From positions 868,001 through 932,000 of the forward strand of contig CP084619.1 of assembly GCA_025917655.1 (NCBI GenBank): DNA of 64,000 nt. The letters run 5' to 3'. The stretch is from Chlorella sorokiniana (taxonomy: Eukaryota; Chlorophyta; Trebouxiophyceae; Chlorellales; Chlorellaceae). The notes below the pieces were generated by a model. It had not been told where the DNA came from. It saw nothing but the letters and a program-made list of their open reading frames with translations, and did no database searches. The position numbers were made by a program, and so were the translations under genes. Positions within the stretch are counted from its first letter, which is position 1. Each line of letters starts with the position of its first letter. Shown here piece by piece: positions 15,090-64,000 of the stretch.

Positions 15090-17678
15090 ATGGTGAGAAT
15101 GAAAGAGCAGCAGCCGATCGACACACTCCCTGGACCGATCGCTGCTCTCGCGGCCCGTGGCTCCCCACGCTCTTCGCCACCACACTCCCCTGAATCAGGC
15201 GTCTGTGCTGCGCCGCAAGGCCTCAATCATTCGCCGCCCGCTCCCTCACCGCCTGCCCCGCCCGCTCTGCGCAGGAGGCCACCGTGGTGTGTGTGGACAA
15301 CAGCGAGTTCACACGCAACGGCGATTACGCGCCCACGCGCTTTCAGGCGCAGGCGGACGCAGTTAACCTGCTGGCGGGGGCCAAGACGCAGCACCACCCT
15401 GAGAACACAGTGGGGGTGCTGACCATGGCGGGCAAGACGCCGCAGGTGGGGGCCCGCGTTCATCGTTCAGCCCTCCCCCTCAACCCCACCTGCCGTATCA
15501 GCAGACGGCAGTGCAGCGCCAACCCCGTTTGTCTCTGCGTCCAAGCCGGCTGCCAACACAACCGGCGCCAGTGCTGGTCCTGTATACCGGCAGAGCCGCC
15601 ATGTGTTGTGCACCACCCTGCCTGCTGCAGCCCACCCCCGCTGTCCCTGGCCCCCTTGTGCAGGTGCTCGTCACGCCCACCCCCGACCTGGGCAAGGTGC
15701 TGAACGCGATGCAGGAGATGCGCATCGAGGGCGACGTCAACCTGGCCACGTCGGTGCAGATTGCGCAGCTGGCGCTGAAGCACCGCCAGAACAAGAACCA
15801 GCGCCAGCGCGTCGTCATCTTTGTGGGCAGCCCCATCGCCGAGGACAAGGCAAGCCTGCTGGTGTCGTGCTTGTGCCGGGGCCGGGACGGGTTGTTTGGA
15901 ATGTCAGTGCTGGCGGCGCTGCTGCCATTGTTGGCCCCGCGATCCCCAGGCATGGCTGTACCCACCCCCGCTCTTGCCTCCCCAGCCCATCCGGCCACGC
16001 CCTGCCTCGGGCTCCCCTGCCCCTCCTTGCCCCGCTGCTCATTGCGCCGCCTGCTGTACGACACGTTCGCCACCGCAGGACTCGCTGGTCAAGATTGCCA
16101 AGAAGCTGAAGAAGAACAACGTGGCGGTGGATGTGGTGAGCTTTGGGTCGGAGGAGGCCAACGGCGAAAAGCTGGAGGCCTTCCACGCCGCCGTCAACTC
16201 CAACGACAACTCCCACCTGGTCACCGTGCCCCCGGCACCATCCTCAGCGACATGCTCTTCGGCACACCCATCTTCATGGAGGAGGGGGCCGGCGGCGGCG
16301 GCGGCGAAGACGGCGGCGAAGACGGCGCCCGGCCGCGCCCGCAGTGAGCCCCGCAGCCGGGGCCGGCGCCAGGGAGGGACAGCGTGTGGTGTGTGCGTGC
16401 ACCGAATCAGCGCGTGTGGGGCTGCCTGAGGGCCTGCCTAGGCCCGGCAGTCGCCATGGCCGGCGTGGTGGCTACAGCGCAGCTGCCGCCGCGCCGGGCG
16501 CCGCCGCCGAGCTGGGTGCACCTCCGCGCACCTCCGCGTTGATGTCTCACCCGCTGTGTGTGTTTGTTCCTTTCCTGGACAGGCAATGTTGTGGACGGCT
16601 TCGACTACGGGGAGCTGGGGGTGGACCCCACCCTGGACCCAGAGCTGGTGCGCGAGGGGCCAGCCTGACCCCGCGCTGGCACGCTGTGGCCGCACCGACG
16701 CGCCGCGTGGCTGGCAGCGGGCACTCCCCTGTGCCTGCCCAGTGGCTTCCTGCTCTGTCGGCGAGATGTGCCAGGCGGATGTGCCACGCGTGCAGCCGTG
16801 CATGCTTGTGACAGCTGCGCTGCCGCCTCCGCCCCCTTCCTCTGCCCCACAGGCCTTGGCCCTGCGGGTTTCCATGGAAGAGGAGCGGGCCAGGCAGGCG
16901 GCCGCCAGCGCCGCAGCGCAGCAGGCCGGCGGCGAGGCGGCGCCTGGCGGCGAGGCGGCGCTTGCCGACGCGCCGGGTGCGCTTGCGATTGCCGCCGCCG
17001 CCGCCGCTGGTGATGTGCATGGCCGCTGCTGGACCCAGCTGCACTGCACATCTCTGGGGCCTGCCATTCCGCCCTAGCCTCCCATCCACCCGCCCCGCCT
17101 CCTCGCCTGTTGCACGACAGCATGCCGCGCTACAGCTCGCATCCCTCCAGCGCCTCTCAAGCCCTCTTAAAGCATGCTCAGCCACGGAATGAGGGTTGTG
17201 CTGCGCAGGCGGCGAGGAGGCGGAGGGCATGGCCCTGGACGGGCTGGACGACGACGCGCTGCTGCAGCAGGCGCTGGCGCTGTCGCTGCAGCAGGGGGAG
17301 GGGCAGGCCACGCCCGCCCCGCGGCAGGTGGGCTGCCCCCGCCCTGCGTGCTTACGGAGGTGCAAGCGCGCGTGCGGGGAGCGGCCATGGATGCGCAGAT
17401 GGAGTTGGCTGTGACCTCAGGTGACGGCCGTCGAAGCCCTTTGCCCCCTCCCCCGGCAGGCGTGGCGCCCACCCCCGCAGCGCCCACCAAGCCCGCGGCA
17501 GCCAGCGAAGCCGCCGCGGGGCGCCCGCCTCCGCCCCAACCCCAGCCCCGATGCCAGCATGCCCACTGGCGCTGACGAGGCGATGGCTGAGCTGGAGGAT
17601 GACCCGGAGCTGGCGCTGGCGCTGCAGATGTCGATGCAGGAGCAGGACGGGGGGGAGGGCGGCGAGAAGAAGGAGTGA
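15090..17678 (+). CDS. RPN10: 26S proteasome regulatory subunit RPN10 (ubiquitin receptor)
   Basis: RPN10 binds polyubiquitin on the 19S regulatory particle. The N-terminal VWA domain is plain: [49 protein letters not shown], then [10 protein letters not shown] and [15 protein letters not shown]. Three ubiquitin-interacting motifs follow: [27 protein letters not shown] and [14 protein letters not shown]. Family proteins start MxLEAT, which here requires a first coding exon of only the ATG (15090-15092), joined to GAG at 15275. Other exons: 15275-15445, 15664-15849 (GC donor), 16079 to about 16340, 16583-16647, 16853-17009, 17209-17327 and 17460-17678. In exon 4 the C run at 16229-16233 seems one base short ([13 protein letters not shown] continues in another frame), probably a sequencing loss. 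Confidence 0.93.
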
Positions 17679-17742: not shown

Positions 17743-17960
17743 AGGGCTGGCCGCTCCTTGTGCTGGAGCGTCCCAGTCCCGCCAGCCTCGAAACAGGAGA
17801 CGGCTTCGATTGTAATGCGCCTGAAGCCTTTTTAGATGTTACACACGGCTGGCAGGCGGCCCGCGTCCAGGATATTTAGCAACAGTATGCCGAGAACCTG
17901 GGGCTTCAATGCTAGTTTCCCCAAGCCACTGCCCCGGGCGAGGATTTTGGCTTTGCCAGG
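17743..17960. repeat. First copy of the duplicated 3'-flank element
   Basis: This non-coding stretch recurs at 19203-19500 and, more diverged, at 20877-21060. Shared landmarks are GGGCTGGCCGCTC, 'cttcgattgtaatg', 'acacacggctggc' and 'gagaacctggggcttc'. It carries TGTAA on the plus strand (17811-17815) and on the minus strand (17843-17839). It follows RPN10 directly but elsewhere lies downstream of the small MG-family genes, so it may be all that remains of an earlier lost copy. Confidence 0.75.
17811..17815 (+). terminator. TGTAA poly(A) signal used by RPN10
   Basis: TGTAA lies 133 bases after the RPN10 stop. The same base context recurs at 19278-19282, after the first MG-family gene. Confidence 0.5.
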
Positions 17961-18389
17961 TTTAGGGTTTAGGAAAGGGTAGAACATTGTGTGTGTGTGT
18001 GTGTGTGTGGGGGGGCGGCGGGCGCAAGGACGTGCAGGTGGTGAAGGTTGGCACTACGCCCAGCAGGACAGAAGGGTGTGATTAAAGTGCCCACTCCACG
18101 GCTGCTGGGTCCAGTGCGCCCCAGCTTAATTTTCGTCTCGCATATTGTTCGGCAAGCAGCCTGGGTAGCACTTCACTGTCGACAAACACACTGTTGTTGC
18201 AAAGCAGCCTGGTGTCCTCATTCCGTGGCCATGTTAAGCCGTTGTCCTGTCGAAGCCTCACGACCCGCGCGCTTGCTGCAACAGCTTAGGCACAGTGCCC
18301 TCCCTTCGACAGCAGCGGACGCGGGTGCGGCGCTGGGTTCTCTGCCCTCCCCTCTTGCCGCAGCACGGTGTCTCTGGAGCCGCCGCTGG
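17939..18389 (+). repeat. 5'-flank unit of MG-family copy 1
   Basis: The unit starts 'gaggattttggctttgcc', includes a (GT)n tract and a short TTTAGGG-like run, and recurs at 19617-20069 before copy 2 at roughly 94% identity over its central 150 bases (hand comparison). A broken partial copy lies at about 19477-19610. It probably holds the promoter and leader of the following small gene. Confidence 0.75.
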
Positions 18390-19121
18390 ATGGGCTCGCA
18401 GCAAAGCTTGCCGCGTGACGAAGCAGAGCAGTACGCTTTGGTGAAATCATGGCTGACACAAACAAACACGAGGCTGGACTTGTTTGAGTCCCAAGGAAAA
18501 CCGGTCGACTCACCCGAGTATAAAGAGGCCTTAGAGTACTACGCTCAGGTACAGAGAGCAAGATGGGCGTGGCGAAGGCGTGAATGTGAGCGCTGCGACA
18601 GCTTGTGCGCTGGGTGTTGACTGCCACATGGCCTTCTGAACAGTGCAGCCATGGCCTTGCTAATCTGCTGAGTTTGTGGCGGTTGACCGTCTTAGCAGCA
18701 GTCCCGCGCTGCTGATCTGCCTGCGCAGACTGCTTTCTTATGGGCACACGGCCCCTGCCAGAGCAGCCGCCGCCTTTAACAGAGCCACCATGGCTGGGTG
18801 AGTGCGCGCAACGCTGCCAGACCGCCTGTTGCCTTCCATACGGCCCTGCCCACTTCGCGGCGCCAACCAGTAAACCCCACTGCTTCAATTCTTCTTCCCT
18901 TGGCTTGCTGTGCAGTTTGCAAAGCTGATGCGTCCACACAGGCGAAAGGAGTTGGCGAGGCACCATCGACGCCGCTGAGCGCAGGCAGCGTGGGCTGTGC
19001 TGAAATACAGCCTCCATCCATCCGTCAGCGCCGCGGTGTGCTGAGCGGCAGCACCGGGACCTGTGGCGACGCTGGGGGCAGTGAAGTACAGCGGCTGCTG
19101 CCCCATGAGCGTGCAGGGTAG
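18390..19121 (+). CDS. Unknown small protein, MGxQxSLP family, copy 1
   Basis: I do not recognise this gene. Three exons, 18390-18585, 18729-18797 and 18916-19121, join in phase (1, 1) to give 156 residues. Donors are consensus (GTGAGC after the first, GTGAGT after the second). The protein starts MGSQQSLPRDE and continues with a charged, Tyr/Trp-rich first exon ending WAWRRRE. The 69-base second exon encodes FLMGTRPLPEQ...EPPWLG, and the third is Ser/Gly-rich, ending EVQRLLPHERAG. Gly2 and Ser6 fit an N-myristoylation site, and there is no signal peptide or membrane segment. The frame stays open upstream, but the other two copies do not support an earlier start. The two other loci with the same exon plan make a real gene likely; the function is unknown. 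Confidence 0.72.
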
Positions 19122-20069
19122 AGTGTTGTTCGTTTGTCAGCAGCAGGCGCAATACTGCAAGAAGCGGCGGCGGCATGCCCCGATGAATTCCGCACTCCTG
19201 TAGGGCTGGCCGCTCTCATGTGCTGGAGAGCGCTGTTGCCCATTTCCGCCAGCCTTGGGTGCGAAGCCAGCTTCGATTGTAATGCCGCCTGAAGCCTGTT
19301 CTGGCAGTCGGCCTGTGTCCAGGAGGACACGTTATGCCGAGAACCTGGGGCTTCCAATGCTAGTTTGCCCAAGCCACTGCCCCGGGCGCACAGCGAGGGC
19401 GGTGGAGCTGTTTGCGTCGCCCGATCGGAGATATGGGGCCGCCGCGGGGGCCCCATAGTGCATTTGTCCCAAGGATTTCGGCTTGCCAGGTTTAATGTGC
19501 CTTTGACAGGCGCCGGGAGGAGAGGGTAGAACATTGGGGGGGGCCGAAGGATGTGCAGCCAAGGCAGGTGGTGATGGTTGGCACTACGCCCAGCAGGACA
19601 GAAGGTCCCACTCGACGAGGATTTTGGCTTTGCCAGGTTTAGGGTTTAGGAAAGGGTAGAACATTGTGTGTGTGTGTGTGTGTGTGGGGGGCGCGGCGGG
19701 CGCAAGGACGTGCAGGTGGTGAAGGTTGGCACTACGCCCAGCAGGACAGAAGGGTGTGATTAAAGTGCCCACTCGACGGCTGCTGGGTCCAGTGCGCCCC
19801 CGCTTGATTTTCGTCCCGCATATTGTTCCGCAAGTAGCCTGGGTAGCACTTCACTGTCAACAAACACACTGTGTGTTGTTGCAAAGCAGCCTGGTGTCCG
19901 CATTCCGTGGCCATATTAAGCCGTAACTGGTGCAAGACACAACCCGCGCGCTTGCTGCAACGGCTCACGCATAGTGCAGTGCCTACGATAGCAGCCGACG
20001 CAAGTGCGGCGCTGGGTCCTATTCCCTCCCCGTCTTGCCGTAGCAGGTCGTCTCTCGAGCCGCTGTCGG
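19122..20069 (+). repeat. Nested repeats between MG-family copies 1 and 2
   Basis: No gene is seen apart from flank repeats. 19203-19500 is a second 3'-flank element with a TGTAA at 19278-19282 and an extra insert near 19390-19460. About 19477-19610 is a degraded piece of the 5'-flank unit, and 19617-20069 is the intact 5'-flank unit of copy 2. The order (3' flank, partial 5' flank, full 5' flank) points to at least two unequal duplication events. Confidence 0.7.
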
Positions 20070-20795
20070 ATGGGCTTGCAGTACAGTTTGCCGCGTGATG
20101 AATCATACCAGTTCAGTGTGGTAAACTCACGGTGCATAGCAGCAGAGGCGAGGTTGCACTTGCTCAAGTCCCAAGGAAAAACGGGCGACTCGCCCGAACT
20201 CACAGAGGCCCTTGAGTACTATATTCAGGCGGTGACAGCAAGACAGGAGTGGGAAAAGCGTGAACGTGAGTGCTGCGACTGCGTATGCGCTGGGTGATGA
20301 CTGCCTCTTGGGTCTCTGAACAGTGCTGCGATGGCCTGCTTGCTTTGCTGTGTTTGTGGCTGCTGACCGTCTAAGCGGCAGCTCCATGTTGGTAATTCGC
20401 ATGTACAGTCAGTTTCGTAACGGGCGCACGACCCCTGCCAGAGCGGCCGCCGCCTTTGGCAGAACCGCCATGGCTGGGTGAGTGTGCGCAGTGCTGTAGA
20501 CAGCCTGTGTTCTTCCCATACGGCCCTGCCCGCTGCGCTTTGCCAACCAGTCAATCCAACTGCTTCAGTTCTTCTTCCCTTGGCTTGCTCTGCAGTTTGC
20601 AGAGCTGATGCGTCCACACAGGCGAAAGGAGTTGGCGAGGCACCATCAACGCCGCTGAGCGCAGGCAGCGCAGGCTCTGCTGCACAACGGCCTGCATTTA
20701 GCCGCCAGCGCCGCGGTGTGCTGAGCGGCAGCACCGACGCTGGCGACGCTGAGGGCTTTACACGGCCGCTGCTGCTCCATGATTATGGAGAGTAG
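20070..20795 (+). CDS. Unknown small protein, MGxQxSLP family, copy 2
   Basis: Tandem paralogue of the gene at 18390. The exons 20070-20265, 20409-20477 and 20596-20795 give 154 residues. The first two exons (196 and 69 bases) and both introns (143 and 118 bases) equal those of copy 1 in length. The protein starts MGLQYSLPRDES; exon 1 keeps SQGK, DSPE and EALEYY but otherwise differs at about half the residues. Exon 2 encodes FVTGARPLPER...EPPWLG. Exon 3 starts almost identical to copy 1 (ADASTQAKGVGEAPSTPLSA) and ends RPLLLHDYGE. Donors are GTGAGT at both introns. Intact frame, exact exon lengths and mainly amino-acid-changing differences all argue for a working gene. Function unknown. Confidence 0.72.
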
Positions 20796-21058
20796 TAGGC
20801 GGGTTGTTCGTCGGCAGCAGACACGACCGGCAAGAAGCGGCGGCGGCATGCCCCCACTGAAATCCTCCCTACTGTGGGGCTGGCCGCTCTAATGTGCTGG
20901 AGAGCGCTGCCGCCCGGCCCCGCAAGCCTCGGAAAAGGAGACAGCTTTAATTTCATTGCAGCCTGAAGCTGTTCGTATCTTACACACGGCTGGCGCTGGC
21001 AGCCCGCCTGCAGGCATGGCAGCCGCGGCGTGCTAGAGCTCTTGGGCGTCAACGCTAG
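20796..21058. repeat. Third, diverged 3'-flank element
   Basis: From 20877 this matches the 3'-flank element at 17743 and 19203, but the plus-strand TGTAA has decayed. The minus-strand TGTAA (20984-20980) remains, 75 bases beyond the stop of the minus-strand TBC gene, and probably serves it. Confidence 0.6.
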
Positions 21059-24000
21059 TCACCCAACGGTGCTGCCGCCATCGCCCGCTTGCGCAGCGTG
21101 CAGCGTGGCGGAATAGCTGTCCTCTGCGTCGTCGCTGCCGCCTGCCCCCAGTCCATGTCAAGCCGGAGCACCATGTTCATGAGCTGCGGAAATGGGGCAG
21201 GGGGCCGTGCAAGGAGTGTAAGAAGGGACCATCATGTCCGCCACATTTGAAGCAGTTGCATGCTTCAACAAGCATGCATGCGGGCCCTGCTGGCTACAAG
21301 TCCCAACAATCATGCAGGCAGCCGCAGCTGAAGGCTAACAAACTTGAGGCGAGGGCGGCGCGGGCGGCAGCAGTGGCCCCCAACCCGGCAGCAGGCCCCC
21401 ACCTCCTCGTCAATCTGCTGCTGCGCCGCCGCCAGCTCAGCCGCCACGAGGTCCTCCCCAACCGCGTCGGGCTGCCGAGGCTGGGCCAGCGAGGCAGCCT
21501 GCTGCGCCTGCTGCCCAGGCGCGAGGGCCTGGGCGGGGCGGGGGCGGCCGAAAGGTTTTGGTCGCCAGGGGGCGCCTCGGCGTCCGTGGTGGGGTTGCGG
21601 GTGAGTGAGCCCGCAAAGCCGAGGAGCAGCGCAGCCTCTGCATCTGCCAGGTCCTGCACAAACGGAGAGCATGAGCGAGGGCATGAATGAACGTGGATGG
21701 GGTTGGCAGGCAGCAAGGCTGGGACCACGTTGGCCTGTGCCGCATCGACTCAATAGCTGTGGGCCGAGGTGGCCCCCACTGCGCCACTGCAGTGCGGCGC
21801 CTGCCCAGACCCGGCCCACACACTTGCCCCTTTGGGGCCTATATACAGGCCATGATACAACATATATGCCACACCACAACGTCAAGACGCAGTAACCACC
21901 TGATAATGAGGACTGGCTTCTTCTGCTGCCCACTGGCACACAACCACCCAGCAAAATTCCGGATCCCTAGCTGTTAAAACCCCCTTGCCAACCAGCACAC
22001 AACAATTCAAGCTAACAGTTCCAGCCTGCGGCATGCCTGAGCCCCCAGAAGCTGTGCAACGCGCCTGCGCCGTGATGGGGCTGGCAATGGCGGCGTTGAG
22101 CACTCGGCGCAGTCGGGCGGCCGGCCACTGCACCGGCTCCACTTTGAGGTAGGTGAGCAGCGCCTCAAAGTCCTGGGAGGCGCGGGGGTGGGGGGGCGGG
22201 GCGGGCGGGAGGCACGCATAAGGGTATGCAGCCCCAACATCCTGCCGAGAGGTGCCAAAAATGCGGCGTTATGCTGTGGGAGCGTTGGCTGCGATCATGC
22301 CCCGCAAAGCCAGCAAGGCAGGCTGCAGGGAGGGACGCGAGCCGTAGCGACGCCTGTTGCTTAGACCCCCGGAGGCGCGGTCACCCACACAGCGCAACAG
22401 TGGCACCGCGCGGTGCACACCAGCAGCACGCACCTCTTGCACCAGCAGGTCGCCCTCACACTCCGCCAGGATCGTCACAGCTGCTTTGAGCAGGATGGCG
22501 TCGCTGTTCTCCTGCAGGGAGGCAAGGGAGGCGGCAGCGATAAGCACGATACAACGGGACTTGGAGGGCATCCCCCAGGCGAGCGCTTCGACTGCTTGCG
22601 CGTTGCTGAAGACCAGGCGGGAGACAAGGAAGCAGCAGCGGCGAGGGGCGCCAGCTGTGAAGGAGTTTCGGCAGCGCGTTAAGAGCTCTTGAAGCGCAGC
22701 GCGGCTAACCCATTGCAAGGACTAGCGGCAGCAGCCCGCCAGCCGAGCGGGCGGCGGCAGCCTGGCCGAGCCCTCGCGGCAGAGCGGCTGCCAGCGGCCT
22801 GTGCTGCCCTTTAGACAGGTCCAAAAACAGCACAGCACGAGCAGGAGAACCCGGGGCAGGGCTCGCCGCCCGACAGGCATGGGCAGGGAGGGGGAGGGGG
22901 CGGGACCTAACCAAAAAAAAAAAAAAAAACGTGCCTGCAGCATGACGTCCACCAGGCGGCAGGCGAAGCCGACTGGGAAGGGGCAGGAGTAGCAGGTGAG
23001 CAGCCATTGGGAGGCGAACAGCACAGGCACCACGCCCGCCGCCTGCGCAAGGGGGAGTGTGATCGTGGGTGGGTGGGGGCGGGTGGGAGGGGGTCGCGGC
23101 CAGAGGCCGCCAGCAGCTCAGCCAAAGCTTGGCTGCGCGAGGCGAGCCCAAGCACCGCGTCACTTCCTCTATCAGTATCAACGTGAAGCAAACAACACGC
23201 CCCTTGCAGTATCAACGTGAAGCAAACAACACGCCCCTTGCAGTATCAACGTGAAGCAAACAACACGCCCCTTGCTTCCCACCAAAACAAAACAACAGCA
23301 CCGAACACTAATACACCACCGCGTCAGGAACGCAGCCGTAGCGCATGTGCAGGAGGCGGGCTGGTGGGCGGGCGCTCACGCTGAGGTGGGCGGTGAGGCG
23401 GGGCAGGAAGCGCTCCAGCAGGAAGTCCAGCTTGCGCAGCTCCGCCTTGAGGCCGTCCAGGCCGGGCAGGTAGAGGCGGCGCAGGTTGGGCCCGCTGGTG
23501 CTGCGGGCGGGCAGGGCGGCGGGGGGCGTGTGGGAGTGTGACGTGTGTGTGTGTGTGTGGGTAAGGCGTGTGTGTGTGTGTGTGTGTGTGGGGGGTGGGG
23601 GTTGAAGAGCACGCAGCATGTAGTGCTCTTGCGACGCGCGAGCGGGAGGCAGGGAAGAGGCAAAGCCGCTGACGGGCGAGCAGGAGCGTTCTGGGAGGGC
23701 GGCGGCTTGGGACCAGCCCCCCGCCACAGCACCGGGCACGCCTTGCGCGTCCACAGCATTGCCCCTGTTCCACCCCACCGCCCCCACCCACCCCACCCCA
23801 CACACGACCTCACTCTCGCACCCCCGTCCCCCACCCACCTGAGCAGGCGGCAGAAGAGCTGGAAGGCTGGCTCCTCCGGGCGTAGAACAGCAGCAGGCCC
23901 GCCACAAACGCCATGCCCTGGCAGTAGGCGGCCTGCAGCAGTCGGCAGGGTGTGCAGATGGGTGGTGGCGATGGGACGGCGGGGGAGGCCTCGTTCAAGA

Positions 24001-26663
24001 GAAATGGCAAGGGCCACACAGGCGAGTCACAGCAGCACGTGTGGCGGTCCCAGGCAGGACCCCCAGGCCACGGCTGCAGCCTCCCGCTGCAGCTGGGCGG
24101 GCGCACGCGCTGCGCTGTGCTCCCACGCTGCACCACGCTGTGCTGCGCCGCGCTGTGCCACGCTGCCGTCGCACCTCCATGTCGTGCAGAGCGTACGCCT
24201 TGAGCACGTTAAACAGCGACTGCTGGCCCTGCAGGGCGCCGGGGCAGAGGACAGATGGATGTGGGCGCAAAGTGTCGTTGCCTGGCTGCGGCGTTGCGGG
24301 GGTGCAAGGCGGTTTCCAAACCTGGGAACCCCGGCTGCCCCCCAGGCACTGCATGTGCGTCAACAAGCCTGGCCAGCCCCGCTGTCCCGCTGTGCGAGCA
24401 GCTTCTTCCCAGGCAGGGATCCAGCTGGCGGCATGAGCACACAGCGGCCCTGGCTGGCGGCCCACCTGCTCGAAAGCAAAGAGGGGGTACTCGGGGAAGG
24501 TGCGGTGGATGTCCCGCGAGATGACCTCATCGATGTCCTCCTGGCCCACGCTGCAGGCGGGAGCAGGAGCGGGTGAGCGGGTGGGGGGTGAGGAGTTGTG
24601 TGTGTGTTTGGGTGTGTGTGTGTGTGTGTGTTGTTTGCGGGGACGCGGGGGCCACTAGCATAGGGTGGGAAACCGATGCAGGGCTTGGGCAGCCATGGGC
24701 CGACTCCCAAGCAAATGGGGCGAGAGGAGGGCAGCGGGCGGTGCGTTGATCGGTGCACAGACGCACTGCACGACTCTGCTGCGCTCGCAACGGGAGGCAG
24801 ACGTGCAGAAAACGACTGTCTTCCAGTCACGAGTCAAAACGGACAGGCAGGAGGCTGGCAAGAAAGACGATCGGCATGCAAGCCCTGCTGGGTGCGCTGT
24901 GGCGGCGTGCCGCGCTCCCACTACGGCAGCTGGCATGCCATGCAAGCGTGGCGCCTGACCATCCACCGTCGCGGCCTCGCTGCACCCCAAACACACCAAG
25001 CACGTGAGGCAAGCTGGCGGGCGCCCAGGAGCGGCGCCGCACCTGATCTGCAGCAGCGTCGCGTATCGGCAGTCGGGGGTGGGCGGCGGGCAGCGGCCAC
25101 GGCACGCTCATCATGGCGGTCATCAGGATGTTGCGAAAGCCCTCGCGGTCGCGGCTGTAGGGCGGCCGCCCCGCGGCGCCCGCCAGCAGCGGAGCCCCCT
25201 GCAGCGCGGCGGCGCCGGGCGCCGTCTGCCACGAGCTGCCACTCGTCATCGTCGTCGCCTCGCGGCGGCGGCGGCGGCACGTGGGGCGCGGCGGGCGAGG
25301 CGGAGGGGTGGTGCGCGGCCCAGGCGGCGGCGTGGGAGTTGGAGAGGTGGGCCGGGTCGGGGCTGCCGCCACGGGCGCCAGCAGGCAAGTGTGCAGGGTC
25401 GCCCGCCGCTGCCTCGGCGACGCCGTCCGGGACTCCGTCGGCGGGTGCTGCTGCGTCGCCGCCATCGCGGGCCCCGGGCGCTCCCTGGTGCCTCATGCTG
25501 CTGCGACGCGAGCGGGGCAGCTCCTCGACGCCTCCTCCTTGCTCCTGCCACTGCTGCTGCTGCTGCTGCAAGGCAGCTGCGAGCGTCTGCAGGCGGGGGG
25601 CAGGCGGCAGGCAGGCGCCTGTGCTGACAATGTTGTGCAGGCGGAAACGAGACAGCAGCCGCGCGCTGAGCAAAGGGAAACTGCCACAGCGGCACGCCCC
25701 GCCAGCAAGGTGCGCCGACCCAAACGCGAATACGCAGCACCGGCAGGCATGCACAACAGGACGCGCGCGCGTCAGGTGGAACGTCGAGGCAGTGTGGAGG
25801 CAGGCGGGGGGAGAGGCTGCCTGCCTGGTATTCGGAGCAGAGCTCGGGATGCTCCAGCACGGCCATCCAGAGGCGGGAGCGCAGCTCCTGTGGGGCGTCC
25901 TCATACAGCTGGAAGGCCACCTGCTGGGGCGGCGCAAGGAGCTCAGGGAAGCTGCAGGGAAGCTACGTGGCCGGAGACGGGACGAGGGACGCCCCAGTGC
26001 GGAGGGAAAGGGGAGCATGCCGGCGGGTGGGCCGCAAGCGCATCGCTTGCCTTCCCCCTGGCGGCCTCGGCAGCAGCACACCCACCTGCACATCCACCGG
26101 CGTATCCCGTTGCTCCTCCAGGAGCGCCGCAATGCGCTGCTCCTCTATGCGCTGCTGCAGCTTCTGAAGCACCCCGCAACGGTGCGGGGCCCCGCCGCGA
26201 TGCGCCCCGCCCCGTGCTGCAGCCCTGCTTGGGAGCGGAAGTGGGATGGGGGAGAGCACAGCGCTTGCGCAGGTGCACACTGTCTAAGGCTGGAGACACA
26301 TGCTGCGTCATACCAGTTCGCTTTGCTTCTCTTGGTCCCAGGATAGATGCGGGCAAATCTGCTAGCAAGGGCAGCAAAGCGCGCCCACCCAGCCACCCAC
26401 CCACCTCTGGCCACGCCGACGGCGCCCTCGGCCAGAGCGCGGCGCTGCGCGAGCGCAGCTCCTTGTCCAGCATGATCTCCCCAGCCGCTGCCGCCGTCCT
26501 GGCGATGCCCTCGCCCACATTGCTGGCCGCCAGGGCCAGCCGCTTGCCCAGCTGGCCGAGCGAGAAGCGGCGGGCTGCGCGGGGCTGCCCCCTCCTCTTC
26601 CTGCTCGTCGTGCACCTCCAAGGCTGGGTGTTGGGCCTCCTCCTGGAGTCGGTCTTCCTCCAT
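21059..26663 (-). CDS. TBC-domain Rab GTPase-activating protein
   Basis: TBC proteins switch off Rab GTPases using an arginine and a glutamine finger. Both are present: ISRDIHRTFPE (R finger) and AYCQGMAFVAGLLLFY (Q finger). The ATG at 26663 opens an acidic head, then an N-terminal helix (SLGQLGKRLALAASNVGEG). Checked exons: to 26405, 26163-26086 (KLQQRIEEQRIAALLEEQ) and 25920-25825 (APQELRSRLWMAVLEHPE, start of the TBC domain; its intron has a GC donor). A long exon from 25586 carries a low-complexity insert, then RYATLLQI. Later exons give LFNVLKAYALHD, FASQWLLTCYSCPFP, DAILLKAAVTILAECEGD and FEALLTYLKVEPVQW. The C-terminus ends MAAAPLG at 21059. The C run at 26588-26592 appears one base short. 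Architecture resembles the EVI5/GYP5 type; the Rab target is unknown. Confidence 0.87.
23173..23274. repeat. Three perfect 34-base tandem repeats
   Basis: The unit begins 'cagtatcaacgtgaagcaaa' and ends 'cccttg', three times in a row with no difference seen. It lies inside an intron of the TBC gene. Confidence 0.9.
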
Positions 26664-27111
26664 AGCCCTCAGTCTCGGACAGAGTTGGCTTCGGGCAAGG
26701 GTCGGAATACAGACACCGTCGAGAACCTAGAGTTTAGTGTAAGCCGCTGCAAATCATCCGAAGCCGCGGGTCTCGACCGAGACATGCGCTCTCGGGGACA
26801 CGCCGTACTGCCCGCCATTGCTGTACCCAGCACATCACAGTCCTCGAGCGAATGCGTTGAATCCGAGTGACTCTTGTCTTACAAATGTCTTCCACGTGTT
26901 CCATACCCGACGTATAGACAGTCGCTCGCCAGCTGACAAACCCCAGCCAGCGGCAACACAATCTTATTCGACAGGCCTTTGAAACGGTAGCGTTATCAGC
27001 ACCCCCGGGGAAAGGAGACGGTATCCCTATTCGACTGCAGACACCGACAGCAAGCCTGCGCCCGTTGCGCTGCAAAGGCGTCAGCACGTAGTCTAGGGGG
27101 CACCTTACCCG
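26664..27111. promoter_or_regulatory. Divergent intergenic region, TBC gene / MG-family copy 3
   Basis: About 450 bases between two divergent starts, AT-richer than the flanking exons. It should hold both promoters. It does not resemble the 5'-flank unit of copies 1 and 2. No further feature seen. Confidence 0.4.
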
Positions 27112-27804
27112 ATGGGCGCGCAGCACAGCTTACCCCAGGCAGAGTCTGCTCGAAAGATTCAAGTGGAATGCTGGTCCCGTGCAACTGACAGCCGGCTGAA
27201 GAATCTCCACTCCGAGGGCTTAACAACTTCGCCGGAGTATAAAGCAGCCGTGGATGTGTCGGGCCATTTGTTTGACGAAGGACTAGGGTGGCTTAAGCGT
27301 GAAGGTGCGCTGATGATGCACTTGGCTAACGCAGATTGCTGAGTGCCTGGCAGCGGACCCCTGCGCAGCGGTCTGTGCTGCTTGCCTGCCTGTGCAGCCG
27401 CCTTCATGAGTGGTGAACGCCCCCTGCCAGACATACCCCAAGCTGTGCCTTGTCCTCCGTGGCTGGGTGAGAACGCACCAGGAAGCCTCCTTTGCTGGGT
27501 GACTCCCCGCCTGCATTTGTGCCTGCCTGCCTGCCACTTGGGGTAAGGGTGCCGTTTACATTTGCAATGGTCCTCTGGGCCTTGTTCTGCTGCAGACCAC
27601 AGAGCGATTGCCTCCGGCAAGACGTGTCTGACCTACGAGGCGCCAGCAACGCAACTGAGCGCATGCAGCGCCGGCTCCCCTGCACGCCAGAGCACAAGCA
27701 CTTGCCAGCGTGGCGGCTTGCCGGTCGGCAGCGCTGCGCATGGTGAGGAGTTCAAAAGCAGTGAGGCCCAACAGCTGCTGCCCGACGAGCTTGCAGATCA
27801 TTAG
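27112..27804 (+). CDS. Unknown small protein, MGxQxSLP family, copy 3
   Basis: Distant paralogue of the genes at 18390 and 20070, about 7 kb away. Exons 27112-27304, 27398-27466 and 27596-27804 give 156 residues with the same splice phases (1, 1) and again a 69-base second exon. It starts MGAQHSLPQAES, keeps a TSPEYKAAV segment like DSPEYKEAL of copy 1, and has MSGERPLPD...PPWLG in exon 2. Exon 3 ends SSEAQQLLPDELADH, comparable with GGSEVQRLLPHERAG of copy 1. Introns (93 and 129 bases) and flanks no longer align, so it split off well before the tandem pair. Gly2 and Ser6 are kept. That the exon plan survives such divergence is the best evidence that the family is real. Confidence 0.7.
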
Positions 27805-28385: not shown

Positions 28386-32391
<4,006 letters not shown>

Positions 32392-36120: not shown

Positions 36121-44288
<8,168 letters not shown>

Positions 44289-57023: not shown

Positions 57024-59900
57024 TCAGATACCTTGAGCGGTAGCGGTTTCTGCATCAGCCCCCGCCTGCTCAATTCTGGCCATGAACATGCGCAGATCGA
57101 GGTGGGACTGCGCTGGCAGCAGCGTCAGGAAGGTGCGCAGGCTGTGGTCAAAGCAGGCGTGCACACGATTCATGCCGTCGCTGACCTCTCGCAAGACATC
57201 CTCGGCGATCGCAGGGGAGTTATACACCTGCGTGCCAGCCGCACGATCTGTTGACCAAACACGCCGCCAAAACCGGGCGGCATGCAAAGCAGGCAGCCAC
57301 CTATGCTCACCTCTGCATTCCACTGGCCAGCCGCCTCGCTGTCCTCAGCACGCTGCACATACAGCGCCTGCTCCACAACAGCCTGCTCAATGGTGGCTGC
57401 CAGTCGCCGGACGGGGCCCTGCATGTGGTAGCGAACAACCAGAAGTTGAGGTCACCCCAACTCATACGCAATGGCAAGAGACTGGTCATGACCCATGTGC
57501 AACAAGTCGGAACGGACCTGGATGTCGAGCATCGCTCTCAACGTCTTGCGCAGCCCTGCCTGCACGTCGGGCGCGCCGGCCCCGCCCACACCCAGCGGCG
57601 TGAGCGTCTTCGGTAGGCCGTCCAAGAACATGCCGGAGGCGATGGCCTGCATTGCACTTGGGATAAACGTCTTTGTATGCCCAACGAACAGGCGGGCATT
57701 GTCCTGCTGCCTCACACCTGCAGGGTGCCCTCGTGCAGGCTGATTGCATCATTCAGGTCGACGGCCTTGGGCAGCGATTGCATGAGCCTGGCCCAGTTGG
57801 GCTCCAGCACCTCAAACACGATGTAGTACTGCAGACTGGTCACAAAGCTGGACATTTCGGCGCGGTATGCGTGGAAGGCGCGCAGCACCGGCGGCACCTG
57901 CACCGGCAAGGGTGGCCGCCATCAGTGGCTCGAAGAACAGGCAAAGGCTAGGACTTAAGAGTTCAGCATGCGGCGCCCTCTTTCTGCGCGGCTTCCAATG
58001 GCGCACCAGCTCAGCATTATCCACAGCCACGCCATGCGTGCGCTCCTGGGCCTTCAGCGTGTTGAGCAGGCGGTGCGTGGTGTTGATGGTACCCCAGCAC
58101 TGCTCCAGCACCACCTCCACGTGCTTGATGGCCCACAACAGGCGGAAGATGCACAGGTAGCCTGCAAGCGAAGGGCATGGCAACAAGTCAAACCGCGCAT
58201 GGCTCGAAGGGCATCCGACACCGGGTTGACAGGGTGTGTGACATGCAAGCCGCGGTGCATCATGCCTCGCCATTGCACGCACCCTGGCCCGCTACCCGCC
58301 AGCCCACCTGCCATCGCGTCGGGGCTGAGCACCGCGCCCACCGGGCCGTCCACCTGGTAGTGCAGCGTGAAGGTGTCCCAGCCGAGGTCGCCCTCCAGCG
58401 GCTTGCTGGGCAGGCGCACATCCACGCGACGCAGGATGTCGGCATCCTCGCTGGCGGCGGAGGAGGAGCGCAGCGCGGCATCCAGGTAGCCCTGCGCGCG
58501 CAGCCGTGAGCGCCAAAGAGCCACCGGGGAGTCAAGGGGGTGGTGTCCGTGACGTTCAAGCCGGCCCTGGTGCTGAGCCTGACCCCCTACCTGCAGCGTG
58601 TACTGCGACACATCCTTGGCGCCTTTGTCCAGCTCCAGCTGCGCCGAGTCGAGCAGCACGCGCACAAAGTCGCCCTGGCCCAGCAGCAGGAACCGCTTGA
58701 TGGCCGACAGGTGGTGCAGCAGGCCGTGCCGCTGCATCACAATGTCCAGCAGGTGGCTGCTGACGGTGCGCTTCACCTCTGCCACCGTCGTCTCCAGCCA
58801 GCTGCGGGGCATGGGCGGTGCAGGTGCAGGTTGCAGGTGCAGGTTGCACGCAACACTGTTGTCAAAACAAAACAATGATGTGCACAGAAAGCAAAGCCAT
58901 GTGGTACAAAAGCATATCACTTGCTAACAAAGGACCATGCAGCTGTCAAGCCATGCAAGGAGCACCACAACAAGCGCTGCTGCTTGCAGGCATAGTCACA
59001 CTATAATCACAGCTTCATGACCCACCGCAGCTGCTGGTAAGTGCCGCCAGACGTGGCCAGCTGCTTGGCTGCCTCGCTCACAGCATCTGCCCAGCGTGTG
59101 TCCCCGCACCATTCGCGCAGGAATGCAATGGTTTTGCCGGCGGTGAATATGTCTGCGGCCAGCTGCGCAGGTAGAAAATTCGGCTGCATTGCTGCATTGA
59201 GCGAGTAGCCACCGCGCCAGACCGCAGCAGGTTCGTCGCAGTACGGCGGCGCCAGCTGCTCCTTGGCCACCAGGAACTCGCGGCTGGCGGCGTCCACGGT
59301 GCCGCTGACCACCCACATGCTGATCTGCTTGAAAAAGGGCACACATACATCCTCCAATACGGGTACCACCACCTTGCGCACGAGCGGATCGCCATGCTTG
59401 GACAGCGCGTGCAGCGAATTGATGAGCTGGCCGCCGCGCACATCGCGTGCCAACTCAAGGCACATGGTCAGCACCCGCAGCCGTCCCAGCGGCTCGCAAA
59501 GCCAGACTTGGAGGCGGCGCAGCGTCAAGGTGTTCTCCGCGGACGCAGTGGCAGTGCCCGCTGCTTGCTGCTGGGCATGTGCCTCCAAGATGGCTACCAG
59601 GCGGTGATGGTTGGCCACTTCCCGCCGCGCAGCAGCCACCAGCGCCTCGTGCACCACGCTGTGCAGCGTGGTCAGCTCGGCAGTCAGGAGCTCAACCTGG
59701 CGCAGCAGCCAGCCCAACTCTGCGGCTTTGCTGACCAGCTGTTGCTGAGTGTCGGGCACTCCTGCTGTGGCGCTGCAGGCCCAACGACCGCCATCTCGAT
59801 CATCATGGAACGATAGAATGCGACCGTTTTGCAGCGCGCTGCAGGCCCCCAACACGTCCCTGACCAAAACGGGCTCGGGCACTGAAGCAGCGGCCGCCAT
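57024..59900 (-). CDS. GCP3: Gamma-tubulin complex component 3 (GCP3/Spc98 family)
   Basis: GCP3 pairs with GCP2 to hold gamma-tubulin in the microtubule-nucleating complex. The first exon (59900 to about 59030) contains EPVLVRDVLGACSALQNGRI and SKAAELGWLLRQVELLT, the start of the GCP N-terminal (GRIP1) domain, then VWLCEPLGRLRVLTMCLELA and VPFFKQISMWVVSGTVDAAS. The GRIP2 region follows: WLETTVAEVKRTVSSHLLD, HHLSAIKRFLLLGQGDFVR, DADILRRVDVRLPSKPLEGD, LGWDTFTLHYQVDGPV, IFRLLWAIKHVEVVL and VTSLQYYIVFEVLEPNWARL, matching GCP3 rather than GCP2. The end (HLDLRMFMARIEQAG) is at 57024. The protein starts near residue 200 of typical GCP3s, and only 310 bases separate its ATG from the PEPC gene, leaving little room for the missing N-terminal extension. 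It is convergent with the TylF-like gene. Confidence 0.88.
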
Positions 59901-60212
59901 TTCAAATAGTGTGTAAGCAGACCAATGGTAACTTACACAGGCAACGATCAGATGCATGGGGCGTGCAACCCCAAGAGGCGAAGTGCAACATACTCACGCA
60001 GTACGGAAACACCCCAGTACTTCACAGCAGGCGGCAGTGCAGAGAGACTTGTGTGCTGTGCTCACTTCAACTTTACAAAGGACTCTTGAGTTGCAGTGCA
60101 GATGGAATGATGCAATTGTGCTTCGGAAGATTCAAAACAGGGAGCACAATGCGGAAACAGTCCAGTTGTCAGACCTACAGAAGTGCAGCAACAAGGAAGC
60201 AAGGCGACATGT
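59901..60212. other. Intergenic region between PEPC and GCP3
   Basis: About 310 bases between two minus-strand genes, AT-richer than the exons. It contains TGTAA on the minus strand at 60077-60073, some 140 bases after the PEPC stop, and presumably the GCP3 promoter. Confidence 0.5.
60073..60077 (-). terminator. TGTAA poly(A) signal of PEPC
   Basis: Reads TGTAA on the minus strand about 140 bases beyond the PEPC stop. Confidence 0.45.
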
Positions 60213-63200
60213 TCACCCCGTGTTCTGCATGCCTGCAGCGATGCCTTTCATCGTGATGATCCTGCATTGAGAAATCATAGCAACAGTGACATTGTCAATG
60301 GATTGGAACGAGCCTGCAACGATTGCAGTATACAGTTGACGCCCTGCCCCTCCCTGTTGCTCACATGGTGTCCTCGATGCCTGCCACAAAGGGGTGTTTG
60401 GTGTCGCCGCGTGACATGAGGGCCAGCGCCTTCTCACTGGGCTTGTAGTCGGCGGGCACCAGCTCATCCACGCTCTTGCCTGCCTCAATAGCACGCAGCG
60501 TCTTGAGGCAGCTAACCTGAAGCGGAAGCAAAGCACCAAGAGGTGAGAGCACAGGCAGGGCGGTATCTGTTGCACTCCGAACAGCATGCCGCCTTGCCAA
60601 CTCACCTGCAGGATGTTCAGCGGCGCAACATAGGGCGCACGCAGTTGCAGCTTCTGCTGGAGGAAAGCAGTGGAGCTGGAGCTGAGAAGCCGGCTGTGCT
60701 TCATGACCTGCAGGCACCAAGGAAGGCAATGATGTGCGCTGATCCGGCAGCCTGGCACGTTGCCAATAGGGCACGGCGCAGCGATAGGCAAAACACCCAA
60801 AAACACAGTGACAGCACGGAGCGAGTTGCCCCCGGCGCACCGTGAGGAGGGCCTGCTCCGTGTTATCAAACTTCTTCAGCAGCTCGCTGCCTAGGCCATG
60901 CAGCTCAGGGTCCACCAGTGCTCGCTCATACCTGCACGCAGGTGCGGTGCACAGGGGTGGCCCAAATGTTGGTGTTTAAGTGCGGGTGAGCAGCACCGGG
61001 CTGGGTGAGCAGCGCTTGGGACAAGCCGGCAGCGGGGCACATGTTCAAAGCCCTCCAGCCTCACATCTTCACCACCCGCGGGTCGGCCTTGGCAAACACC
61101 ATTTCCAGCATGTCAAGCGTGACACGGAAGAACATCCAGTTGGTGAACATGTCCTGGAGGCAGGACGCAAGCCAGCAGTTGCAAGTGAGCCAACTGCAGG
61201 GTCGTCAACTGAGTCAGGACACAAGCCAGCATTTCCCAGCGGGCCAACTGGAGGGTCGTCAAGTGAGTCAAGGGGTGTGGAGTCGCCAGTCAGTGATTGG
61301 CGCACCCCACCTGCAACAGCTCCAGCTTGCCGGCCTTGATCATTGCGCTCAGCGCCTCACCCACGCCCAGCCACACCGGCAGGTGGAAGCGCACCTGCAT
61401 TCATTTCACATGCACACATGCTGTTTGTACATCAAAGTGCTGTTGTTGAAGTTTACCAAGCAGGAGCACACCATGCGCAGTGCAGGCCGAGACGCAGCAC
61501 CCACCTGCGTCCATGCAAAGATCCAGGGAATGGCGCGCAGCGTGTCGATCGACCCATGGGAGCGACGCTTTGCGGGGCGGGAGCCAATGTTCATGCGGCC
61601 CAGCTCGTTCACTGCAACATCAAGGGCGTTGCTTGGTCGTGACGCCGTCACTCTGCTCACGAATGGCAGCACAGGGGAGCCCACCACAGGCATGCGACGT
61701 GGTGTGGTCGCAACAGCAGCGGAGGCGTCCCAGCGTGCGCACCAGGCGTGATGGACTGGAAGAAGTTCACAAAGCGTGCGTCGTCGCGCACCACGGCCCG
61801 GTACGCTTCGCACGAGATGCGAGCCATCTCCGCCATGGTCTCCCGCCACAGCTGCTCACCCCAGAACAAAGGGAAGGGGCCAGGCTGCTGTCACATTACG
61901 ACACTCGATGGAATGATAGGGGGTTCATGAGTGTGAGAGGCACGCTGTGCTGGAAAACGAGGCAAGGCACAAACCTGGGGCGGCTGCTCGGTCGGCGCCA
62001 GCGTGGCCTCCAGGACCGCCGAGGTGTACCTGTACAAGCAAGAGAAGCTTGCAACGTGAGCACCGGCGGCAGGCAGGGGTGCAGCGAGTCCCGCAGGAAG
62101 GAGGGGGCGCCCCAGCCAGCTAACTCACAGATCCATTGTGTGGAAGGCGCTCTCCTTCTCGCCAAACTGCTGCTCCATCACCTCTCCCTGCAGGCATACG
62201 TTGCCAGGTGCAGGCATGAGGAGGAGAACCACTTGAGACACACTGGAAATGTGCTGCATTATTCTGTAACCCACCTGCACCGTCACGCGGATGCTGCCCC
62301 GGATGGTCCCTGGCGGCTGCGACAGCACGGCGAGGTGTGCGGGGCCACCGCCGCGCCCCACGGTGCCGCCGCGGCCGTGGAAGAGCGTCATGCGCACGCC
62401 AAACTCGTCGGCCACCTTGGTCAGCCGCTCCTGCACCTCGTACAGGCCCCAGGCCGCCGCCAGGCGCCCGCGTCCTGCCGGAGTCGCTGTAGCCGATCAT
62501 GCACTCCTGCGGTCGAGCAAGACGCAGCCCTGGGCACCCTGCCGACAGCTGCTCCCAAAAGCGATTCAGGAACGTCCCCAGGCAGTGACACCGAGCATCC
62601 GGCCCCCGGCCCCGCACCTGCTGGCCCTGGATGTGCGCCAGGTACCATGGGTCGCTGAACAGCTGGCGCATCGCGGTCTCGGCGTAATGCAGATCGTCCA
62701 GCGTCTCAAACAGCGGCACCACCCGCAGCATGTTCTTGACTGCGGGGCGAATGGGGCAGGGCACGCCATGGCGGGGCTGTGCATAGGGGTACTCCAAGGC
62801 AAGGTGTTGCGTGCAAAGCGTCATGCTGCATTGCTCCACGAACTGTGTGCTGCGCTGGCCATCCGGCTCACCGCCGCACTCCTTCTGCAGCAGCACCACG
62901 GCCAGCACGTCGGAGGCGGTGTGGCTCATGGAGATGATGTAGGCTCCAAGGGAGTCGGAGGGCAGCTGCGACAGCATGCGGAAGGTGCCAATCACGTCCG
63001 CCACCTGCATGACAAAGGGCAGCCAGCATGTGTGACTGGGCCAGCAAGAGCGCGACGCGTGCGCCAGCCAGGCACTCGCCCAGCCTGCCACATCTGGCCT
63101 CACCTCTGGGGTCATGGGCAGGTCGGGCGGCAGCAGCGGGCGCTTGCCCGTCAGCGCACCGAGCAGGAACTCCATGCGCTTGGCCTCGTCCCACTCCCTG

Positions 63201-64000
63201 CAGCAGGCACGGCATGACCGCGCCGCCGTCTTCTCCCGTCCCGCACCTGCCCCCTGCCCACAGCCCCCCAAATCTGCCCCCAGCACGGTACAGGGCCTGC
63301 CTGGGCCTGTTTCCCACGGAATGCAACAAACACGCAGCAGGAGCAGCGGCACCATGCGCCCTCGCCCCCGCCTGCAGCGCTCACTTGTAGCTGCCCAGGC
63401 CCAGGTAGGTGGTGATGGCGTCCATCGCCTCGGTGTGCTTCACGCTCTCCTGCCGGATGTCCAGCTTGCACAAAAACAGGCCAAAGACGTGTGCCTGCCC
63501 GGGGGGGTGCGGCCGGAGGGCATGGGGCGCAGCAACACAAACAAGGGAGCCCGGCAAAGTCTGCGGGACGGCTCGCACAGACCACTAGGCTGGCGTCCCT
63601 TCCAGCAGATGCCAGCAGCACTGCGATCCACCCGAGAGAACCTTGCTCCTGACCTGGACAGCGCCTGCGACGAAACCCGCACCACCACTCCTACCCCCTG
63701 CCCCCCACCTACAGCACCCACCTGGCGGAGCACATCCAGCAGCTGGGAGTTGGCGATGTGGACGTCACCAGTGGCAATGAGCGAATCGTAGCACATGCGC
63801 AGCGTGCCCAGCAGCTCGGCTGCAGGCGGACACAACAGCAAGAGTGCTTTGGCAAAGCGGGCTCACGGCGCAGAGCAGGTCTGGGCCGTCCAACCTGTCA
63901 GAAGCGGGTTCATCACCCCCCACACACACACACACACCACTGCAGGCGCGCATGCCTTCCACTCACTCTCGTCGCGGTACGCCTCCGGGTCAGCCTCCAG
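60213..64000 (-). CDS. PPC: Phosphoenolpyruvate carboxylase, plant type (5' end outside window)
   Basis: PEPC fixes bicarbonate onto phosphoenolpyruvate to form oxaloacetate, feeding the TCA cycle and amino-acid synthesis. Family blocks from the right edge leftwards: [20 protein letters not shown] (63450), [13 protein letters not shown] (63140), [20 protein letters not shown] (62950), [16 protein letters not shown] (62710), [10 protein letters not shown] (62500), [20 protein letters not shown] (62380, catalytic), [32 protein letters not shown] (61600) and [10 protein letters not shown]. The last exon is tiny (60261-60213, phase 2 join after 60365) and encodes [15 protein letters not shown], the invariant plant-type C-terminus. 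After YSDSG the frame is off by one at the two-base C run 62474-62475, probably a lost base. The N-terminal third, with any regulatory phosphoserine, is beyond the window. Confidence 0.95.

Follow-up and report, generated by a model that had tools for sequence, protein, structure and literature searches.

A single myristate is a weak membrane anchor, and proteins sorted by AP adaptor complexes through a dileucine signal are typically transmembrane. Myristoylated endolysosomal anchors include LAMTOR1 (p18), which also carries a dileucine signal, and BORCS5; both are conserved proteins rather than a hypervariable family. HIV/SIV Nef combines a myristoylated N-terminus, a proline-rich stretch and an ExxxLL motif, and myristoylation sites follow the pattern G-{EDRKHPFYW}-x-x-[STAGCN]-{P}. 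To our knowledge, unicellular green algae have yielded few gene families of innate immunity or recognition. MGXXXS/T is given as the consensus of N-myristoyltransferase (NMT) substrates, with Ser6/Thr6 neither sufficient nor critical (PMC4736023), and the acidic dileucine AP signal is defined as (D/E)XXXL(L/I) (PMC9366067). The virus-immunity locus on chromosome 19 of Ostreococcus tauri resembles the present case as fast-changing, lineage-specific genome content of a green alga; it differs in being chromosome-scale and in involving glycosylation, and the excerpted account of it presents nothing like an 18-copy myristoylated family (PMC5082852).

We analyzed a 64,000-nucleotide stretch of the Chlorella sorokiniana genome (contig CP084619.1, positions 868,001 to 932,000; hereafter the window), in which a first-pass annotation had proposed three related three-exon genes, here g1, g2 and g3. 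Re-derivation of the exons and junctions placed all three models, to the base, where they had been drawn. The features are as follows.

17743..17940, + strand: 3' flank of a further tandem unit upstream of g1, 73.6% identity to the g1 unit, without a recognisable gene
17939..19616, + strand: tandem unit with g1, about 1.68 kb
18390..18585, + strand: g1 exon 1, 196 nt; MG start and predicted two-helix hairpin (residues 11-35 and 42-64; AlphaFold2 mean pLDDT 81); 18 genome matches
18729..18797, + strand: g1 exon 2, 69 nt, phase 1-1; proline-rich, with PPWL at its end
18916..19121, + strand: g1 exon 3, 206 nt; tail rich in Ser/Pro/Arg
19083..19100, + strand: g1 acidic dileucine motif EVQRLL, residue 145 (coordinates derived from the gene model)
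19616..20974, + strand: tandem unit with g2
20070..20265, + strand: g2 exon 1, 196 nt (gene model)
20409..20477, + strand: g2 exon 2, 69 nt (gene model)
20596..20795, + strand: g2 exon 3, 200 nt, without the acidic dileucine motif
27112..27304, + strand: g3 exon 1, 193 nt (gene model)
27398..27466, + strand: g3 exon 2, 69 nt (gene model)
27596..27804, + strand: g3 exon 3, 209 nt (gene model)
27763..27780, + strand: g3 acidic dileucine motif EAQQLL, residue 144 (coordinates derived from the gene model)

The predicted proteins are 156 (g1), 154 (g2) and 156 (g3) residues long, all six introns are GT-AG and in phase 1, and the reading frames are open. A shared PPWLG had been noted in exon 2; its PPWL stands, whereas the G arises only on read-through of the second donor, the next residue after splicing being V in g1 and g2 and D in g3. 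The coding totals are divisible by three as reported, but this is uninformative as evidence because the gene models terminate at an in-frame stop. The remark that the introns and flanks of g3 are beyond alignment holds for g1 versus g3 (flanks 41–45% identity, introns 50–66%). g1 and g2 are tandem duplicates with 81.5% identity across 1,371 nt, and identity along the tandem copies is uneven.

Three loci turned out to be an undercount. We observed 18 loci that share the three-exon plan in the same genome, in arrays spread over three chromosomes; of 85 protein matches in the window, none lay outside g1, g2 and g3. Introns occupy identical places in all 18 copies, and their retention rules out a retroposed family. 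Exon 1 aligns in a single frame at every locus and exon 3 at 15, and at 14 loci the frame runs without interruption into a tail of the family type; the members include damaged or altered copies, and one locus lacks Gly2. Two kinds of weak match were left out of the count: an extra one at C3:386334 (E 0.64), and others, to exon 3, on C3, C4 and elsewhere. Splice sites of several copies were set by hand from homology, replacing wrong automatic choices; the exon-3 acceptor of C1_3259151 is uncertain, and exon 2 was modelled only as 66, 69 or 72 nt, with 69 nt resting on aligned sequences. The arrangement points to a nuclear family of proteins of ~155 residues that would have spread via DNA duplication, largely in tandem, and evolved by birth and death.

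Gap lengths were compared by aligning unspliced genes in 46 pairs, covering 14 of the 18 copies (all but C2_895112, C1_3259151, C1_4072226 and C7_1164185). Within exons, every one of the 41 internal gaps has a length divisible by three, compared with 51 of 235 intron gaps – counts that are not independent, as gap events were tallied per pair. Unlike total length modulo three, gap length is unconstrained, so this comparison counts as evidence of coding. Conserved frame, splice sites and gap lengths thus support, at the level of sequence, a real three-exon protein-coding family.

The first-pass annotation had recognised no known domain, and searches of HMM libraries bore this out. Nothing credible was found in Pfam with the three window proteins and 14 of the 18 members (the stray matches, TMEM108 at E 0.014 and SpoU_sub_bind_like at E 0.029, each came from one member of the 14 scanned), or in NCBIfam with two members. 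A full-length profile search of the PDB gave no match at E up to 10; exons 1–2 gave 13, the best of which, a mitoribosome protein at E 0.23, was dismissed. One window protein found no match in a protein database, and a search of 5.8 billion proteins returned no relative except open reading frames containing this genome's own exons. Query A2 (14/18 members) retrieved P0001 and P0002, and query A6 (11/18) P0003–P0006; each includes the exact exon-1 sequence of one copy (C7_1435979, C7_1167427, C2_886390, C1_1409625, C2_888070 and C2_895112), and we therefore count them as reading frames of this genome or of its species rather than as independent homologues. In viral and prokaryotic contigs, single-protein queries, which reach close relatives only, gave 17, 26 and 100 pattern matches, none of them a relative, and among the papers listed by literature searches there was no account of such a family.

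The function, called unknown in the first-pass annotation, can be narrowed to a set of predicted parts: a signal for N-myristoylation, a hairpin of two helices, an exon with PPWL and a dileucine signal of the acidic type. MGxxxS is present at 17 of the 18 loci, with the residues between Gly2 and Ser6 free, and the same 17 match the myristoylation pattern from residue 2, the exception having Val2. MGxxxS is no proof of myristoylation. The genome encodes an NMT domain (PF01233, in three pieces at C1:4,120,582-4,121,279, best E 1.4e-26) and AP sigma-type domains. PPWL occurs at 18/18 loci, and a C-terminal [DE]xxxLL lies at a homologous position in 13, nowhere else in those proteins, and is missing from five; MGxxxS, the dileucine and freedom from internal stops coincide at only 11 loci. 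On a 14-gene tree, PPWL (14/14) and [DE]xxxL[LI] (12/14) were kept at levels never reached in 1,500 neutral runs, and Gly2/Ser6 (13/14) at a level reached in 0.4% of them.

Known N-myristoylated proteins thus share Gly2/Ser6 with this family, which differs in lacking Cys3 and any other obvious site for a second lipid and in that its modification is predicted. The near-C-terminal motif resembles that of AP dileucine cargo, with binding again predicted, although the anchor would here be a lipid. Like LAMTOR1 and BORCS5, the proteins are small, begin with MG and are predicted to be helical; up to E 10, however, none of the 14 members scanned matched a Pfam model of the LAMTOR1/BORCS5 type. The likeness to Nef is of layout only, in that a single small protein combines a predicted myristoylated N-terminus with a proline-rich stretch and ExxxLL, whereas the family is cellular, intron-bearing and present in 18 copies. 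Nothing named Nef appeared among the PDB profile matches, and Foldseek gave no significant match with exon 1 among the best 50 of 94; by analogy, the proteins may work like Nef, and we do not assign them to its family.

Residues 11–35 and 42–64 are predicted to form a helical hairpin (AlphaFold2 mean pLDDT 81, pTM 0.59). A Foldseek search with the exon-1 model gave as its best match a designed protein (E 0.84, among the best 50 of 94 matches), dismissed as a two-helix hairpin is too generic. Positively selected sites, described below, cluster on one face of helix 2 (p=0.005) and of both helices jointly (p=0.003); a first look at helix 2, with boundaries chosen by the analyst, gave p=0.001, or 0.009 with the angle free. 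Helix 1 alone has no significant face for these sites (p=0.11; p=0.70 with the angle left free).

Conservation of exon lengths and motifs had been judged difficult to account for unless a protein were under selection. Selection is indeed present, but it does not take the form of plain conservation: the gene-wide omega (dN/dS) of 0.90 is not distinguishable from 1 (p=0.20), pairwise values run from 0.36 to 1.32, and kept motifs occur together with positively selected sites. Codon models were fitted to full-length genes (14 of 18, without C1_4072226, C7_1164185, C2_710509 and C1_3259151; 155 codons) and to exons 1–2 (17 of 18, without C2_710509; 89 codons). A site class with omega>1 outperformed nearly neutral models, as in gene families under diversifying selection: 2dlnL was 80.8 and 40.5 for M1a versus M2a (full length and exons 1–2, respectively), 91.3 and 44.4 for M7/M8, and 80.8 and 37.7 for M8a/M8, while 100 M1a null simulations reached a maximum of 7.3. 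About a fifth of sites have omega >=3. The C1+C2 clade by itself gives a statistic of 35.1; the C7 clade alone is weaker (7.7, p=0.02), with only 3% of sites in the class above 1. The strongest sites are alignment columns 15, 16, 23, 27, 57, 60, 63, 67, 71 and 73 (exons 1–2), four in helix 1, three in helix 2 and three beyond the predicted helices. Exon 3, at an omega of 0.98, gives little sign of constraint over most of the tail. Near-neutrality is statistically rejected, and fixed motifs coexist with positively selected sites.

We propose, at a probability of roughly 0.5, that the genes, a nuclear birth-and-death family, encode membrane proteins that are N-myristoylated and sorted by adaptors, with a helical domain that diversifies against a partner which itself changes. 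Given MGxxxS and an NMT gene, Met would be removed and Gly2 myristoylated by the cellular enzyme, tethering the protein to a membrane. Residues 11–64 would fold into the modelled hairpin with a conserved packing face and the opposite face exposed; positive diversifying selection, which has statistical support, would act on the start of exon 2 and on exposed positions, whose one-face pattern is clear on helix 2. AP complexes may read the C-terminal [DE]xxxLL and route the protein through endomembranes. In the weakest step, the variable surface would bind an ever-changing partner, the likeliest candidate being a factor from a parasite or virus, with a mating or self partner as another possibility.

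It is possible, though we think it doubtful, that this is instead a young, lineage-specific orphan family under weak constraint, whose duplicates drift and whose "selected" class stems from relaxed constraint, from gene conversion that escaped notice and from small-sample modelling. The gene-wide omega indistinguishable from 1, the damaged or altered copies and the one without Gly2 would fit, as would the uneven identity along the tandem unit, which gene conversion could leave; and among nine close pairs dN significantly exceeds dS in none, while exon-1 dN is significantly below dS in three. However, a mix of conserved and neutral sites is the M1a null already simulated, a self-made PHI-type test found no recombination in exons 1–2 (p=0.44), the signal stands on all eight alternative bootstrap trees (39.9–47.0), and motif retention is far beyond neutral. 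Self-recognition or mating proteins, with a hypervariable surface that discriminates kin or mates rather than parasites, seem unlikely: reproductive and allorecognition proteins display the same kind of signature, but N-myristoylation would leave the protein on the cytosolic side, where it is badly placed for cell–cell recognition, and no signal peptide or transmembrane stretch was noticed by eye. Host genes domesticated from matrix/Gag-like or other viral fragments would share the layout (MG start, helical domain, proline-rich PPWL, dileucine); we consider this origin very improbable given introns at the same places in every copy, no credible Pfam match, no significant fold match among the best 50 of 94 and no viral relative within the reach of the contig searches. 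That the loci are a dispersed repeat with frames open by chance is scarcely credible, for although GC-rich DNA is poor in stops and exon 3 omega is about 1, the exon and intron gaps differ, one frame is kept in exon 1 at all 18 loci and in exon 3 at 15, PPWL is universal and omega is 0.68 across exons 1–2 (p=1e-4).

Returning to membrane-tethered proteins that diversify against a partner, a bolder and rather unlikely extension is that they form an unrecognised intracellular, hypervariable recognition family, in which a fixed chassis – the predicted myristoyl anchor, helical core, PPWL and AP-sorting tail – would carry a diversifying helical surface and serve as decoys or sensors against viruses or other intracellular parasites. 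If the selection signal is a real arms race, the named positions and natural variants would offer a route to the partner; if it is not, the family would still be a clean case of a precise exon structure missed by domain libraries.

The three-gene family described in the first-pass annotation is confirmed and grows to 18 loci in the genome. Exon-1 queries from g1 and g3 (two of the window genes) and from the copy C1_3259151 each recovered the identical 18 loci – five on contig C1, seven on C2 and six on C7 – and a C7_1443779 query recovered 17, missing C2_888070; a weak additional C3 match (E 0.64) was left out of the count. The window (G000:C2:868001-932000; assembly 38.8 Mb, 15 contigs) is GC-rich, intron-rich nuclear DNA, in which an ORF domain search placed ordinary nuclear genes near the family and gave no match for four further ORFs (window positions, with the family genes entered in order):

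15511-16344, VWA domain, RPN10-like by eye
18390-19121, family gene g1
20070-20795, family gene g2
27112-27804, family gene g3
30682-31569, lyase family, argininosuccinate-lyase-like by eye
36783-37715, class I tRNA synthetase
59010-59957, gamma-tubulin complex N-terminal domain
62123-63355, PEP carboxylase

Gene models bear out the exon number, lengths and phase proposed for the three window genes, with GT-AG introns, and correct one residue: the spliced products carry V, V or D after PPWL, the motif ending exon 2, rather than the proposed G. g1 and g2 are tandem copies (unit ~1.68 kb, 81.5% identity over 1,371 nt); g3 is a distant copy relative to g1, with flanks, as noted earlier, highly diverged (41-45% identical). 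Both tandem units open with a stretch containing TTTAGGGTTTAGG (17961-17973 and 19638-19650, the only two exact plus-strand occurrences in the window), which adjoins a (TG)n run and resembles plant and algal telomere repeats. TTTAGGG-like repeats, the high GC and intron content, and the lyase, class I tRNA synthetase, PEP carboxylase and gamma-tubulin-complex domains among the ORFs would fit a green alga near Chlorella. Upstream of g1, 17743-17940 corresponds to the 3′ flank of another family unit in which no gene can be recognised, and one more copy was therefore probably lost there. Between g2 and g3, a 34-base unit is repeated head-to-tail in three exact copies (23174-23275).

Models for all 18 copies, set at homologous splice sites, have an exon 1 of 193-199 nt, an exon 2 of 69 nt without exception, and introns of 87-148 and 97-204 nt. 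Fourteen copies are uninterrupted, including C2_712531, in which residue 2 is Val; the remaining four are not family-type throughout. C2_710509 has an in-frame TAA inside exon 1; C1_4072226 has an exon-3 frameshift, its usual tail running on in another frame; C7_1164185 (188 aa) has a replaced tail, the usual one being absent from every frame; and C1_3259151 has a diverged tail and an uncertain exon-3 acceptor. C2_710509 adjoins C2_708477, whose first donor is GC, in one three-gene array, an arrangement consistent with birth and death. Because introns are retained, duplication occurred at the DNA level. Among the 45 longest matches, most dispersed copies share ~0.8-1.1 kb, which is gene-sized, the two C2 arrays share 1.2-1.3 kb, and 2-3 kb or more is shared by copies of one array and across the two C7 arrays.

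The earlier proposal of a conserved protein holds as to coding. When unspliced genes were aligned in 46 pairs, gap lengths were divisible by three for 41 of 41 internal exon gaps and 51 of 235 intron gaps, counts in which events recur among related pairs. An exon-3 search gave a single-frame match at 15 of 18 loci, a frame-split match at one and none at two. With exon 2 as the query, 12 places were hit, every one of them a family locus, but the six C7 copies were missed; this search is therefore not sensitive. Domain, structure, protein-database and viral/prokaryotic contig searches yielded no relatives outside this genome; contigs were scanned with single-protein queries, and the collections are seemingly poor in eukaryotic gene models. 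The six database proteins recovered each contain exon 1 of one of this genome's own copies, without a letter changed. "Lineage-restricted" thus means only "not found" in the collections searched.

"Conserved" is better refined to a rapidly diversifying, probably myristoylated 18-copy family. Pairwise dN/dS ranged from 0.36 to 1.32 (pairs with dS < 1.2), and one-ratio omega was 0.90 over the full length (against 1, p=0.20) and 0.68 in exons 1-2 (p=1e-4); our own code and IQ-TREE GY agreed on the one-ratio likelihood (-4374.92 versus -4374.82). Adding a site class above 1 raised 2lnL by 80.8 over the full length (omega 3.6, 17% of sites) and by 40.5 in exons 1-2 (omega 3.0, 20% of sites), where the maximum among 100 M1a parametric bootstrap data sets was 7.3. 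Gains were 25.1 for the four C2-cluster copies, 35.1 for the C1+C2 clade, 7.7 for the C7 clade (p=0.02) and 10.8 for exon 3 alone (p=0.005). The signal persisted on all eight bootstrap trees, and a PHI-type test written for this analysis detected no recombination (p=0.44). Chief among the rival readings is an orphan family under weak constraint, for which the site models would give an inflated signal. Close pairs count against positive selection: dN significantly exceeded dS in none of nine, and exon-1 dN was significantly below dS in three of the nine.

Under naive empirical Bayes, with branch lengths fixed up to scale, posteriors reached at least 0.9 at alignment columns 15, 16, 23, 27, 57, 60, 63, 67, 71 and 73. 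AlphaFold2 (five-row alignment; mean pLDDT 81, pTM 0.59) predicts exon-1 helices at 11-35 and 42-64. Seven of these ten strongest sites map to the predicted helices, of which helix 1 has four and helix 2 has three; the others are just past helix 2 and at the exon 2 start. Conserved positions cluster on one face of each predicted helix (p=0.002 and 0.001). For the selected positions, one-sided placement is seen on helix 2 (p=0.005) and on both helices jointly (p=0.003), and is not significant on helix 1 (p=0.11); with the helical angle free and slightly different boundaries, p was 0.009 for helix 2 and 0.70 for helix 1.

At the N-terminus, MGxxxSLP, columns 1, 2, 6, 7 and 8 fall in the conserved class and columns 3-5 outside it, the pattern expected if this sequence were an N-myristoylation signal. 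The acidic dileucine [DE]xxxL[LI], a candidate sorting signal for adaptor complexes (AP), occurs in 13 of 18 copies, confined to one C-terminal place, with its three intervening residues variable. Neutral simulations on the 14-gene tree kept PPWL as well as observed in 0 of 1,500, likewise the dileucine in 0 of 1,500, and Gly2/Ser6 in 0.4%. The genome encodes both an N-myristoyltransferase and AP sigma-type domains.

The simplest account of this probably myristoylated family is a small protein that would be lipid-tethered and adaptor-sorted, combining an unchanging chassis with a helical surface that varies. A first guess at the binding partner of that surface is a putative parasite or virus factor, since the protein would face the cytosol; a role in mating or self recognition comes second.
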